Source: Rosistilla oblonga
GTDB lineage: Bacteria; Planctomycetota; Planctomycetia; Pirellulales; Pirellulaceae
Assembly (NCBI RefSeq): GCF_007751715.1
Contig: NZ_CP036292.1
Coordinates: 868,001 to 932,000 of the forward strand
DNA length: 64,000 nucleotides
Reading direction: 5' to 3'
In this document: in pieces, positions 2,875 to 38,405 of the stretch
Layout: every line of letters starts with the position of its first letter
How positions within the stretch are numbered: the stretch's first letter is position 1
Made by a program: the position numbers and the translations under genes
Notes under the pieces: generated by a model
Seen by the model: the letters and a program-made list of their open reading frames with translations, nothing else
The model's database searches: none
What the model was told of the DNA's origin: nothing

Positions 2875-3093
2875 TGTTGCGTTGAATCCTGGAAAAGAAA
2901 GAGAGAAGAGGAAAGTCGCTGGGGCTCAGACTGCGTTCGCGACCCGACCGTTGATTGCGGATCACGGGGCGGTCGATAGCCGTTGCGGCCTTCAGCGTAC
3001 GATCGATTCTATCCAAGATAGCGAGCCGACGGAGCGGTCGGATCGACAAAAGGAGCCAAGAAATAGGGGAGAGAAGAATGCGCGAGCATACGC
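2875..3093. other. Intergenic region upstream of sulfatase
   Basis: About 220 bases upstream of the sulfatase start, containing its presumed promoter. I see no gene, RNA or strong promoter hexamers here. Together with the following repeat array it makes up the whole gap to the sulfotransferase gene. Confidence 0.5.
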
Positions 3094-3290
3094 GCTGGAG
3101 TCGAGGCTTCAGCCGAACGGTTACGGGGGGACGTCGCCTAAAGGCTCTACTCCAACGGCGCTGGAGTGGAGGCTTCAGCCGAATGAATGCTGGGGGACGT
3201 CGCCTAAAGGCTCGGCTCCAACAGCGCTGGAGTGGAGGCTTCAGCCGAATGAATGCTGGGGGGACGTCGCCTAAAGGCTCTACTCCAACG
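3094..3290. repeat. Three tandem copies of a 66-bp palindrome-rich repeat
   Basis: Three consecutive copies start at about 3094, 3160 and 3226. Each begins GCTGGAGTSGAGGCTTCAGC and ends GTCGCCTAAAGGCTC followed by NCTCCAAC. The unit is bounded by complementary ends (TGGAGT and ACTCCAA) and holds two small palindromes, GGCTTCAGCC and GCCTAAAGGC, so each copy can fold as a branched hairpin. Copies 2 and 3 are almost identical; copy 1 has a diverged centre (AACGGTTACGGGG). The array ends 10 bases from the stop codon of the sulfotransferase gene, so it lies immediately downstream of that gene. It does not look coding. Confidence 0.85.
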
Positions 3291-3299
3291 GTGTCTTTC

Positions 3300-4460: not shown

Positions 4461-4628
4461 GATGATTGAATGCGGGTTGCAGGGAGAGACGGCGGGCCAA
4501 AATCTGATCGTAGTTGTCGCCCAGCGGATTTGCTAGGCGAGCTTGGTTTTCACTTCCCCCGGGGATCGGGCTCCGGGCGACTTGCAGTATACTGAAAACG
4601 TGAACTCCCAACCCTCGAGGCCCGTTGG

Positions 4629-9378: not shown

Positions 9379-9521
9379 ACCATACCAGCACGAAGCGCAA
9401 GCGAGCGAAAATCCATACTAGCACGAAGCGCAAGCGAGTGAAAATTCATACTAGCACGAAGCGCAAGCGAGCGAAAATCGGTCCAGTCGCCATACTAGGA
9501 CGAAGCGCAAGCGAGTGAAAA
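9379..9521 (+). repeat. Short direct-repeat array, four units of about 33 bp
   Basis: Four units contain CACGAAGCGCAAGCGAGYGA (the fourth has GACGAAG) preceded by CATACYAG. Three are followed by AAAATNC; the third is followed by a slightly longer linker. Translated, the units give the TSTKRKR motif that produces many spurious small proteins in planctomycete genomes. The array begins exactly at the outer end of the IS inverted repeat. It has no variable spacers and is not a CRISPR. Confidence 0.85.
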
Positions 9522-9649: not shown

Positions 9650-9838
9650 TCACTCGCTTGCGCTTCGTGCTGGTATGGGGGAGGGGATCACTCGCTTGCG
9701 CGTCGTGCTGGTATGGGAGGGGGGATCACTTGCTTGCGCTTCGTGCTGGTATGGGGGAGGGAATCACTTGCTTGCGCTTCGTGCTGGTATGGGAGAGGGA
9801 TTCACTCGCTTGCGCTTCGTGCTGGTATGGGAGGGGGG
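9650..9838 (-). repeat. Short direct-repeat array, five units of about 38 bp, opposite orientation
   Basis: Five units of the form ACTCGCTTGCGCTTCGTGCT then GGTATGGGRGRGGG. They are the reverse complement of the 9379-9521 unit with a G-rich tail in place of the A-rich one. Units start near 9652, 9690, 9728, 9766 and 9804. The array runs up to the 3' end of the zinc-ribbon gene on the minus strand, stopping about 10 bases from its stop codon. With the array at 9379 it forms a large inverted structure. Confidence 0.85.
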
Positions 9839-9846
9839 GCTTTGGC

Positions 9847-25179: not shown

Positions 25180-26215
25180 CTTCGTCCGGTTCCGGCGAGG
25201 GCGGTTTGGAACGAGGCGACTTTCGTTTGCCCAAGACCATCAGCCCGACGATCGTCAATGAAACGCCGATCACCATCGATTGAGTGACGCGTTCTTGGAA
25301 GATCAGCACGCCGGCGATCGCTGCCATTGCAACTTGGGTTACGTTTATTAGGTTCACCACAACCACCGAAACGACCTGCAACGCGACGGTTAATACGAAA
25401 AAGGCGAACAGATTAAACAGCCCCGCGGCTAACATTACCAACCACTGGTCTGCCGTCGTTGCCGCCAATCCCTCCGGCCCGACGCGTGCCAAGGCGATCG
25501 TCGATAGCCCGAAGGTGCCGACCACTCCGCTGACGAACATCGTCGTCGCGACTGCCATTCCGCTCAGAAGACTACGGCGGACCATCGTTCCCAGGAATGA
25601 AAAGGCGAGCCCCGAGATCGAGACGGCGATCACTCCGCTGGCGATCTGCAGAGGTGTCAGGTCGGCGCGGACCGCGCTGCGACCGCTTCCCAGCGAAAGA
25701 ATCGCCGTCGCCACGATCAAGACCACGATCGCGATGACCGTCCGCATGGTGACGCGTTCGCCCAGAAAGATGCGTCCGAAGACCGCTCCGCCGATCACCA
25801 TCGTCCCCAGGCAGATCGGCACCGCCAACGCCAGTCCAACGATGCTCAACGAATACTGGAACGCACAATTGCCGATGAATTGTCCGACGCAACATCCGGC
25901 CAGCAGGTAGCCGATCGCGGACCGCTGAGGAGTTAAAACAACGCCGCGGTTCCACAACAGGAACACGCTTGGCGCCATTCCGATCATCGTCGGAAAGGCT
26001 TTGGCCGCCGTGACCATGATCGGATCCAGATCGCTTACCTGTCGCAGCGCGATATTAGCCAACGTGTAACCGACAGCGGCCAGCAGACAATAGATCACGC
26101 CGACGGTGTAGGAGATCGGAGCGGCAACGGGCTGCGGTGGAATCGCGTTGGCGGCGGCGACGATCGAATCCGGTGGCTCGGGAGACAGCGTTTGAACTTG
26201 GTTTGGTGCTCTCAC
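25172..26215 (-). CDS. EamA/DMT-family transporter
   Basis: A 347-residue drug/metabolite-transporter-superfamily protein with ten predicted membrane helices in two EamA halves (about residues 35-170 and 190-330). Visible helix sequences include VIYCLLAAVGYTLANIALRQ, FVLTVALQVVSVVVVNLINV and the closing SMVIGVSLTIVGLMVLG. The tail is basic (GKRKSPRSKPP). The start is the GTG at 26215-26213, which overlaps the queD stop as GTGA, a standard coupled junction; a longer TTG start would lie inside queD. The substrate is unknown. Coupling to queD raises the possibility of a pteridine/deazapurine-related substrate, but that is only contextual. Confidence 0.88.
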   Translation of the reverse strand: MRAPNQVQTLSPEPPDSIVAAANAIPPQPVAAPISYTVGVIYCLLAAVGYTLANIALRQVSDLDPIMVTAAKAFPTMIGMAPSVFLLWNRGVVLTPQRSAIGYLLAGCCVGQFIGNCAFQYSLSIVGLALAVPICLGTMVIGGAVFGRIFLGERVTMRTVIAIVVLIVATAILSLGSGRSAVRADLTPLQIASGVIAVSISGLAFSFLGTMVRRSLLSGMAVATTMFVSGVVGTFGLSTIALARVGPEGLAATTADQWLVMLAAGLFNLFAFFVLTVALQVVSVVVVNLINVTQVAMAAIAGVLIFQERVTQSMVIGVSLTIVGLMVLGKRKSPRSKPPSPEPDEAT

Positions 26216-26640
26216 CCCAGCGTCACTTCCGAACAACTCTCTTCGGATTCCCAGATCACGACTTTGCTGGCGTGGGTTCCCGTGTCGCGCAACAGTTCCG
26301 GGCAGACGACTTCCAACAGGTAGCGGGCCATGTTTTCGGAGGTCGGATTGTAGGGCAATTCAAAGACGCGGCAGGGTTCGACCATGTGGATCGCCTGCAG
26401 CCCGTTGGTGTCTTGATCCCAGAGCACAAAGGCGTGGTCCCAGTTCTCGTCGATCCAGCCTTTGAACTTTCGCTTCAGCACGCCGAAGTCGATGATCCGC
26501 CCGACATCGTCTTGGACTTCGCCGGTCACATAAAACTCAGCGACGTAGTTGTGCCCGTGGAAATGGACGCACTTGCCGTCGTGTCCAACCAACCGATGAC
26601 CTGCACAGAAACGAATACGACGCATCACGGTCAGACCCAT
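26212..26640 (-). CDS. queD: 6-carboxy-tetrahydropterin synthase (QueD)
   Basis: A 142-residue PTPS/QueD enzyme that converts dihydroneopterin triphosphate to 6-carboxy-5,6,7,8-tetrahydropterin, the second step of 7-deazaguanine (queuosine) biosynthesis. Zinc-binding histidines lie in FCAGHRL and HFHGHNY. The Cys in KCVHFHGHNY is the family catalytic cysteine. PTSENMARYL and VVIWESEESCSEV are the conserved C-terminal motifs. The start MGLTVMRRIRF is supported by a GGGAGA site 11 bases upstream; the longer frame has an unusual N-terminus. The stop overlaps the EamA GTG. Symbol queD is assigned on the Cys-x3-HGH arrangement typical of QueD; a eukaryotic-type PTPS activity is less likely in this lineage. 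Confidence 0.9.
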   Translation of the reverse strand: MGLTVMRRIRFCAGHRLVGHDGKCVHFHGHNYVAEFYVTGEVQDDVGRIIDFGVLKRKFKGWIDENWDHAFVLWDQDTNGLQAIHMVEPCRVFELPYNPTSENMARYLLEVVCPELLRDTGTHASKVVIWESEESCSEVTLG

Positions 26641-26798
26641 AGCGATCACAATCTCCCACGAACCAAAGAACGAAGCACCCCAGCGAAGTTCTATCCTAAG
26701 CCGCAGCGTCAGCTTTGGACAAACGGGGGCCACGAAATTTCAATGCGATGCGAGTGCTTGTGCGCGGGAGACCGCCGCAATGGTCCAATGTCGCTTCA
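26641..26798. other. Upstream region of queD
   Basis: About 160 bases carrying the likely queD promoter, before the tandem-repeat array. No gene or clear hexamers are seen. Confidence 0.4.
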
Positions 26799-27735
26799 CC
26801 GCGTCCCCATCGGGCCGCGCGTTTTTCTGGGGCGAGCGCTGGACACCCAGTACTGTCGGTCTGCGAGAGTTGCAGCCCAAGTTGTCGGACGCGCGGGGCG
26901 TTGCCCACGCGGTTAAACGAGATGGTGAGTGGCCGCGTTGGTTGGATTCGCATTCGTTTAACCGCGTGCCCATCGGGCCGCGCGTTTTTCTGGGGAGAGC
27001 GCTGGACACTCAGTACTGTCGGTCTGCGAGAGTTGCAGGCCAGGTTGTCGGACGCGCGGGGCGTTGCCCACGCGGTTAAACGAGATGGTGAGTGGCCGCG
27101 TTGGTTGGATTCGCATTCGTTTAACCGCGTGCCCATCGGGCCGCGCGTTTTTCTGGGGCGAGCGCTGGACACCCAGTGCTGTCGGTCTGCGAGAGTTGCA
27201 GCCCAAGTTGTCGGACGCGCGGGGCGTTGCCCACGCGGTTAAACGAGATGGTGAGTGGCCGCGTTGGTTGGATTCGCATTCGTTTAACCGCGTGCCCATC
27301 GGGCCGCGCGTTTTTCTGGGGCGAGCGCTGGACACTCAGTATCGCCGGTCCACGAGAGTTGCAGGCCAGGTTGTTGGACGCGCGGGGCGTTGCCCACGCG
27401 GTTAAACGAGAACGGCGCGTGGCCGCGATGGTTGGATTCGCATTCGTTTAACCGCGTGCCCATCGGGCCGCGCGTTTTTCTGGGGCGAGCGCTGGACACT
27501 CAGTACCGTCGGCTGCGAGAGTTGCAGGCCAAGTTGTCGGACGCGCGGGGCGTTGCCCACGCGGTTAAACCAGAACGGCGAGTGGCCGTGTTGGTAAAAA
27601 TTCGCATTCGTTTAACCGCGTGCCCATCGGGCCGCGCGTTTTTCTGGGGCGAGCGCTGGACACTCAGTACTGTCGGTCTGCGAGAGTTGCAGGCCAAGTT
27701 GTCGGACGCGCGGGGCGTTGCCCACGCGGTTAAAC
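26799..27735. repeat. Six tandem copies of a 163-bp repeat
   Basis: The landmark CGCGTTTTTCTGGGG recurs with the first base of GTTTTT at 26821, 26984, 27147, 27310, 27474 and 27638, giving spacings of 163, 163, 163, 164 and 164. Each unit contains the hairpin GCCCATCGGGC, the hairpin GGGCGTTGCCC flanked by CGCG arms, and a pair of long complementary arms CACGCGGTTAAACG and CGTTTAACCGCGTG, about 37 bases apart, across the unit junction. Copies are near identical; units 4 and 5 differ mainly in the loop (GAGAACGGCGCG, CAGAACGGCGAG). Because 163 is not a multiple of three, all frames run open with repeated peptides such as RVPIGPRVFLGRALDT. These are not genes. The sixth unit is interrupted by a MITE-like element. 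Confidence 0.9.
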
Positions 27736-27876
27736 GAAATACCGTTCAGTGAAGCGTATTGGACGAGGTTACGAGTCCTTTTGCATTAGACCCAATCGCT
27801 GGGACTCGTAACCTCGTCCACTACATCCCGCCGCTAATTCTTTCGACGGTCCGAGGCTCCTTCGTTGAACGGTATT
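27736..27876. repeat. MITE-like palindromic element, copy 1
   Basis: A 141-bp element inserted at the loop of the sixth tandem unit and bounded by a 10-bp direct repeat GCGGTTAAAC (27726-27735 and 27877-27886), which may be a target duplication or a shared terminal motif. Near the ends are complementary arms (ATACCGTTCAGTGAAG; CTTCGTTGAACGGTAT). Inside are 18-bp perfect arms GGACGAGGTTACGAGTCC (27761-27778) and GGACTCGTAACCTCGTCC (27802-27819). A second copy in the same orientation, about 90 percent identical by eye, lies at 48417-48562. It ends about 50 bases from the stop of the minus-strand DUF1501 gene. Confidence 0.82.
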
Positions 27877-27925
27877 GCGGTTAAACCAGAACGGCGAGTG
27901 GCCGCGATGGTTGGTGCGGCCCGGG

Positions 27926-29386
<1,461 letters not shown>

Positions 29387-38231: not shown

Positions 38232-38247
38232 GCGACGCGTGCACCCC

Positions 38248-38405
38248 CGTAGTGGATCTTGTTAAAGATCCCTTTGCACACACCCTGTTCCGTAGTGGAT
38301 CTTGTTAAAGATCCTTTTGCACGCACCCTATTCCGTAGTGGATCTTATGAAAGATCCTCGCCCCGACGTTTTTAATGCTCGAAGGATCTTTAACAAGATC
38401 CACTT
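38248..38405. repeat. Palindromic GGATCTTGTTAAAGATCC repeats
   Basis: Three direct copies of CGTAGTGGATCTTGTTAAAG followed by ATCC lie at 38248-38271, 38291-38314 and 38333-38356; the third has a variant centre (TTATGAAAGATCC). The complementary sequence GGATCTTTAACAAGATCCAC lies at 38384-38403. Each copy is self-complementary at its core (GGATCTT and AAGATCC), and the inverted fourth makes the whole array a potential long hairpin. It fills the gap between two same-strand genes. Confidence 0.85.

Follow-up and report, generated by a model that had tools for sequence, protein, structure and literature searches.

Between a queD-like gene and a gene for a DUF1501 protein, the window that we analysed, a 64-kb stretch of the Rosistilla oblonga genome, contains a tandem array that is very probably a BIME of a REP/RAYT system whose cognate RAYT is apparently gone from this genome. 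Elements of this kind (BIMEs and REPINs) are known; what sets this one apart is the unusual foot of the repeats and the divergent RAYT.

An earlier note on this DNA had described six near-identical, non-coding units phased at 163-164 bp, with built-in palindromes that also span the junctions between neighbours, and this description was confirmed. Tandem Repeats Finder delimits the array at 26791-27737 (period 163, 5.8 copies, 94% matches), units 1-6 share pairwise identities of 90-98%, and palindromes with 32-nt arms that are 84% complementary are present both inside the units and across the unit junctions. The array shows no sign of coding: its period of 163 cannot be divided by 3, and the ORFs that traverse it (91-175 aa) lie in several frames on both strands. 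A pattern scan identified 12 REP cores in the array, at successive spacings of 103, 60, 103, 60, 103, 60, 103, 61, 102, 62 and 103, which correspond to per-unit periods of 163, 163, 163, 164 and 164. The array consists of 12 hairpins of about 32 nt whose orientation alternates, so that they make up six REP pairs, and it is because the REPs are inverted that palindromes are found within as well as across units. Within each unit, a REP(+) is followed by a spacer (about 66 nt), a REP(-) and a linker (about 33 nt); the coordinates are given in Table 1. This composition of the unit, the transposase family that accompanies it and the MITE described below had escaped the earlier note.

Table 1. Coordinates, within the window, of the REP array, its MITE and the neighbouring genes.
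Feature	Position	Strand	Basis
Tandem array (BIME), six units of 163-164 bp	26791..27740		Tandem Repeats Finder, REP scan, unit comparison
REP 1, degenerate, C-type stem	26791..26822	+	sequence, REP pattern scan
REP 2, G-type stem	26889..26920	-	REP pattern scan
REP 3, C-type	26954..26985	+	REP pattern scan
REP 4, G-type	27052..27083	-	REP pattern scan
REP 5, C-type	27117..27148	+	REP pattern scan
REP 6, G-type	27215..27246	-	REP pattern scan
REP 7, C-type	27280..27311	+	REP pattern scan
REP 8, G-type	27378..27409	-	REP pattern scan
REP 9, C-type	27444..27475	+	REP pattern scan
REP 10, G-type	27541..27572	-	REP pattern scan
REP 11, C-type	27608..27639	+	REP pattern scan
REP 12, G-type; foot adjoins MITE	27706..27737	-	REP pattern scan
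139-bp MITE, ends AATACCGTTCA / TGAACGGTATT, at foot of REP 12	27738..27876		sequence, copy comparison
Linker remnant of the sixth unit, beyond MITE	27877..27914		sequence
queD-like gene (PTPS/QueD family)	26212..26640	-	profile matches, ORF; probable ATG at 26640
DUF1501 protein gene, co-directional with queD-like gene	27926..29386	-	profile match, ORF

A REP of this family measures about 32 nt and is composed of a foot, (TC)GTTTAAC, and a hairpin, whose 8-bp stem carries a bulged base and ends in a 3-nt loop; its length and its capacity to fold into a hairpin agree with the palindromes of 20-40 nt that are typical of REPs, BIMEs and REPINs. We compared 242 REPs (at most 4 mismatches) from 62 regions of the R. 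oblonga genome, which form a non-random sample since they were selected for holding matches. In these REPs the foot positions 3-9, GTTTAAC, are 96-99% conserved per base, and the stem pairs are Watson-Crick in 94-98% of the cases, save for pair 15-25, the innermost but three, which is the weakest (79%). Pair 16-24 (98% Watson-Crick) is G-C in 129 REPs and C-G in 109, and pair 17-23 (97% Watson-Crick) is G-C in 125 and C-G in 110. The search pattern left both sides of the stem free to disagree, and the coupled switching at these two pairs supports the hairpin; it also divides the REPs into two classes, C-type and G-type. Mixed pairs of the two types account for 91 of the 96 pairs with their feet outside (3 are C-C and 2 untyped) and for 62 of the 64 pairs with their feet inside (2 untyped), and neighbours in the same direction are of one type in 19 out of 19 cases. 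Counting the kinds of feet-out pairs once per cluster leaves 43 mixed versus 3 (p ~2e-10 against random pairing), an excess that could alternatively stem from descent from one founder pair. The BIMEs of E. coli show a similar pairing, of Y with Z motifs. As single-stranded DNA, a lone REP is slightly more stable than its shuffles (z -1.3 and -1.0).

The count of copies elsewhere in the genome that the earlier note had called for revealed that the hairpin is not local. The REP core is present 301 times in the R. oblonga genome (at most 3 mismatches; 152 copies on the plus and 149 on the minus strand), well above the 100 copies per genome that distinguish REPs, and the reversed pattern, used as a control on the same genome, had 0 matches. 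With the same pattern, 361 copies were counted in a sister species (G002) and 65 in a congener that is more distant by the genes compared (G001). A DNA search of the 7.25-Mb genome with the 163-bp unit yielded 196 matches. Of those listed, the ones beyond the array almost all span a single arm, the exceptions lying near 5538080-5538649 and 2245428. In the 62 regions selected for matches, the 242 REPs form 63 clusters, namely 12 singles, 22 pairs and 29 larger clusters with up to 21 REPs. Alternating orientation and inverted doublets, both hallmarks of BIMEs and REPINs, prevail in these regions: 160 of the 179 neighbouring REPs have opposite orientations, and 18 of the 22 isolated pairs have their feet outside. 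Some clusters, on the other hand, are same-direction arrays. The arrays have different periods (e.g. 97, 99, 100, 154 and 163 bp), each being regular internally with some irregular ones, and a period that is regular within an array and differs between arrays suggests local growth. Only 22 out of 83 REPs (26%) are located inside open frames of more than 250 codons, versus 84% of 2575 background positions, open frames being used here instead of gene annotation. Finally, a pattern scan of named genomes recovered at least 118 stretches with the REP, and the 80 titles listed all belong to MAGs or to genera that we take to be planctomycete.

A candidate for the cognate transposase is found in the sister species G002, where an ORF of 240 aa (TTG start, conserved part from about residue 37) is flanked by 9 and 11 REPs of the family of the array, the arrangement expected of a RAYT and its own REP. 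In an alignment of five proteins, one of them partial, residues H138, H140, Y208, N212 and P213 are invariant, and the protein possesses the HUH motif (HxH at 138-140) and the single tyrosine (Y208 in YVxxNP) of a RAYT. Its best NCBIfam model is REP_Tyr_transpos NF047646, at 41.5 bits with a cut-off of 80; it also matches IS200 NF033573 (22.5; cut-off 55) and Y1_Tnp PF01797 (21.2; cut-off 23). For two homologues, NF047646 is again the best model, below 80 (41.9 and 48.3 bits). By sequence, the RAYT matches one solved structure, 2ec2, weakly (E 0.079). The protein was matched in 26 of the 117 genomes searched. Its five closest homologues (49-54% identity; loci L090-L094) all belong to the same family but to other genera, and their loci contain 5, 10, 10, 8 and 5 heptamers GTTTAAC/GTTAAAC versus 0.2-0.4 expected per locus; a REP-like repeat follows all of these heptamers but one, with a hairpin that varies by genus. 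At nine further loci (L095-L102 and L104; 28-50% identity), including those of the four homologues from outside the family with 46-50% identity (L095-L098), the heptamer was found 0 times or 1 time per locus. Therefore, the GTTTAAC foot marks a subclade or host family and not every RAYT homologue; at the remaining RAYT-match loci, feet were covered by a REP scan with 6 mismatches alone. A tblastn search with the RAYT over 118 loci of the pattern scan gave one match (L153, 46%), where GTTTAAC repeats with a different hairpin lie at or before the gene (6967 and 7422) and a single REP of the family seen in the window is present at 4605; the excess of heptamers at this locus is weak (3 versus 0.66 expected). 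At the locus of a more distant homologue (L096 1429-2220, genome G047), the flanking hairpins have GTTTCGCG as their outer sequence on one strand, which may have drifted from the GTTTAAC foot.

With the G002 RAYT as a query, both as protein and as DNA, no match was obtained in the R. oblonga genome or in G001. The R. oblonga locus syntenic to that of the RAYT contains one REP pair between flanks that are 96-97% identical to those in G002, which has about 2 kb of REPs plus the RAYT at this place; in G001 no REP was seen in the stretch compared, for which the right flank alone aligned. Because 301 REP copies remain in R. oblonga, we infer that the RAYT was lost in this species rather than gained in G002. 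The roughly 300 copies are thus apparently orphans.

R. oblonga carries five PF01797 (Y1 transposase) genes, each with palindromic repeat arrays on both sides that belong to a different family per locus (L021-L025), and several REP/RAYT systems seem to coexist in its genome. The window has a second REP-like array (960-1303), which matches repeats that flank the PF01797 gene at L024; compared with the five loci it gave 36 BLAST matches, and the four listed are all to L024. Perfect tandem repeats of CAACACCCATCAT (13 bp) and CCGACCGATTC (11 bp) are present beside the RAYT gene of that locus, at 2084-2226 and 2638-2703. The window contains four more tandem arrays with hairpin-like units, at 3092-3291, 9380-9479, 9650-9839 and 38247-38358, and a comparison of these with the repeats at the five RAYT loci, with a word size of 11, gave no match; the unit at 38247 starts with CCGTAGTGGATC, which contains GTAG.

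The last unit of the array is interrupted by a MITE (Table 1), which is present at the same place in G001 and G002. The sequence GCGGTTAAAC at 27726-27735 is repeated at 27877-27886 and flanks the MITE; the pair is probably a target duplication, the left copy being separated from the MITE by two additional bases. Counting partial and inverted self-matches, the MITE has 67 matches in R. oblonga, 96 in G001 and 61 in G002. Fifteen of the 21 R. oblonga copies that we inspected have clean ends, and by eye 8 of these 15 adjoin a REP of the family of the array, while 6 of the 7 others are at a TTTAA/TTTAC-like site. Some partial matches are spaced about 1.6-1.7 kb apart, as if they bounded a parent element, and the one that was examined, the probable parent at L256 458-1882, encodes a Tn5-type transposase of 474 aa (PF14706, PF02281).

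Comparison of the congeners, which the earlier note had also proposed, gave one degenerate pair in G001, four units in G002 and six in R. oblonga at the orthologous locus. Units 1-3 of the R. oblonga array share a linker variant that is absent from all four units of G002, so that part of the growth of the array is lineage-specific; the suggestion of a recently amplified sequence fits these data. At a second array, with a period of 100, R. oblonga has 6 units and G002 has 8 at the same place. In R. oblonga, the order queD - REPs - DUF1501 coexists with an order X - REPs - Z elsewhere in the genome (1033058-1033200, three REPs), and both orders are the same in G001. In G002, X is next to the array and DUF1501, and queD is next to Z over about 270 bp without a REP. 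The G002 order is a derived rearrangement, with breakpoints at the array and at a REP cluster lying 137 kb off in R. oblonga, and it looks like a reciprocal exchange between these two REP loci, although it should be noted that this is a single event that was found by starting from the array.

Several other explanations of the array were considered. As the earlier note had observed, a queD-like gene lies beside the array, which begins some 150 bp upstream of this gene and is located downstream of the DUF1501 gene; the queD-like protein scores 95 bits with PF01242 (cut-off 22.4) and 77.8 bits with TIGR03367 QueD, under the cut-off of 89.25. This position, together with the finding that the single unit folded as RNA is more stable than its shuffles (z -2.9 on the plus and -2.8 on the minus strand), would fit a dedicated structured RNA or a regulatory leader of queD retained for its fold. 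The suggested hairpins are real, but the inverted repeats alone suffice to account for the folding, and the proposal of a structured RNA did not hold up. Rfam gave 0 matches at gathering score across the whole window, RNA models matched the array solely through miRNA models far below threshold, no promoter-like sites were found at the array, and its terminator-like sites number 3 versus 2.4 expected. Moreover, the copy number is 1, 4 and 6 in the congeners, the array of G002 is no longer adjacent to queD, and the same hairpin occurs at hundreds of other places in the genome. Nothing pointing to a dedicated RNA was found, and we consider such an RNA or leader highly improbable. We give equally little credence to the view that a classical MITE, i.e. 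a derivative of a DDE transposon with 33-bp terminal inverted repeats, makes up the block between REP(+) and REP(-), these two included. Isolated pairs that are mostly inverted, with their feet outside, do resemble terminal inverted repeats; however, the distance between arms ranges from 31 to 197 bp, 12 of the 63 clusters are single REPs and some run in the same direction, every arm forms a hairpin of its own in which stem changes are coupled, and a RAYT gene is located among the repeats in G002.

On the question of orphaning, one of the five Y1 transposases of R. oblonga, or an unrecognised one, might mobilise the REPs in trans, and since the G002 RAYT itself scores under the PF01797 cut-off, another divergent one may escape detection. 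We regard this as unlikely: no link between the REPs of the array and the five genes was found, each being flanked on both sides by other repeat families, with no REP of the family of the array within 1.5 kb of any of them (at most 9 mismatches), and the protein and DNA queries with the G002 RAYT matched nothing in this genome. BIMEs of enterobacteria have been proposed as binding sites for a host protein, e.g. gyrase or a nucleoid protein. Arrays kept as such putative sites would be compatible with a BIME origin and would fit their long persistence at orthologous places in congeners, but their copy number varies freely among these species, and as an explanation host use seems to us improbable. 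By analogy, the protein expected to bind the array is the RAYT transposase. Counting against our own explanation, a BIME of a REP/RAYT system, are a RAYT that falls under the cut-offs of NF047646 and PF01797 and whose one solved-structure match is weak, a foot that differs from both GTAG and CGTC, loci with 0-1 heptamer for the four homologues from beyond the family (46-50% identity) and for five more distant ones, and the weak fold of the single REP hairpin as DNA.

The system shares with the gammaproteobacterial BIMEs/REPINs and their RAYT (TnpA-REP) hundreds of copies of a short, imperfectly palindromic repeat whose 5' foot is conserved, an alternating orientation with mostly inverted doublets, and a RAYT flanked by the same REP. 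It differs from them in its foot, in its long uniform tandem arrays with large spacers, and in a RAYT that scores far under the NF047646 cut-off. Most REPs tabulated in PMC2817692 start with GTAG or a GTGG-like sequence, and no GTTTAAC or GTTAAAC was found in PMC2817692 and PMC6006769, respectively. The GTAG and CGTC superfamilies, with members in Planctomycetes and other deep phyla according to PMC3733652, likewise are palindromes with a tag at one end, and the tag here is GTTTAAC instead of either tetranucleotide. The same paper describes TIRtrons, which are RAYT-like genes between long inverted repeats. Judged by motifs only, the RAYT shares HUH plus one tyrosine with the TnpA-Y1 subclasses, and the NP at the end of its Y motif is shared with class 2, but its motifs in the alignment of five, [QED]H[VTA]H and YVxxNP, equal no subclass row of Table 1 in PMC6006769, where class 3, listed for Planctomycetes, has a Y motif ending in EQ. 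The Tn5-type MITE at a REP foot recalls the REP-targeting insertion sequences described in PMC1525189; the MITE here differs in also being found at other TTTAA/TTTAC-like sites. REPs without their RAYT, attributed to RAYT loss, are reported for gammaproteobacteria in PMC3686654. No open-access literature on REP in Rhodopirellula was found.

Following the chemistry of published RAYTs, a divergent single-tyrosine HUH transposase would recognise the foot and hairpin on single-stranded DNA, and may have spread REP pairs, mostly inverted with their feet outside (REPIN-like), through the genome of an ancestor. The pair between queD and DUF1501 would then have been amplified with its spacers to 4-6 tandem units, whether through slippage, unequal recombination or transposition, and in the R. 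oblonga lineage the RAYT locus would have been reduced to one REP pair. Presumably by recombination, the orphan arrays could still offer homology for copy-number change and rearrangement.

With this reading, REP/RAYT biology comes to include a foot that belongs to neither the GTAG nor the CGTC superfamily and, in Planctomycetota, a divergent RAYT. More tentatively, and as a possibility that we would not yet call probable, there may be a separate planctomycetal REP/RAYT branch that keeps GTTTAAC across genera while its hairpin changes, in which the foot is a favoured landing site of the Tn5-type MITE, and in which REPs without a RAYT persist as arrays that change in copy number and recombine, including the 137-kb exchange. 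If this is true, an abandoned transposition signal shapes chromosome structure. The three congeners, with a RAYT in one that was not found in the two others, constitute a natural experiment on whether BIME arrays keep expanding and rearranging the chromosome after the loss of their transposase.
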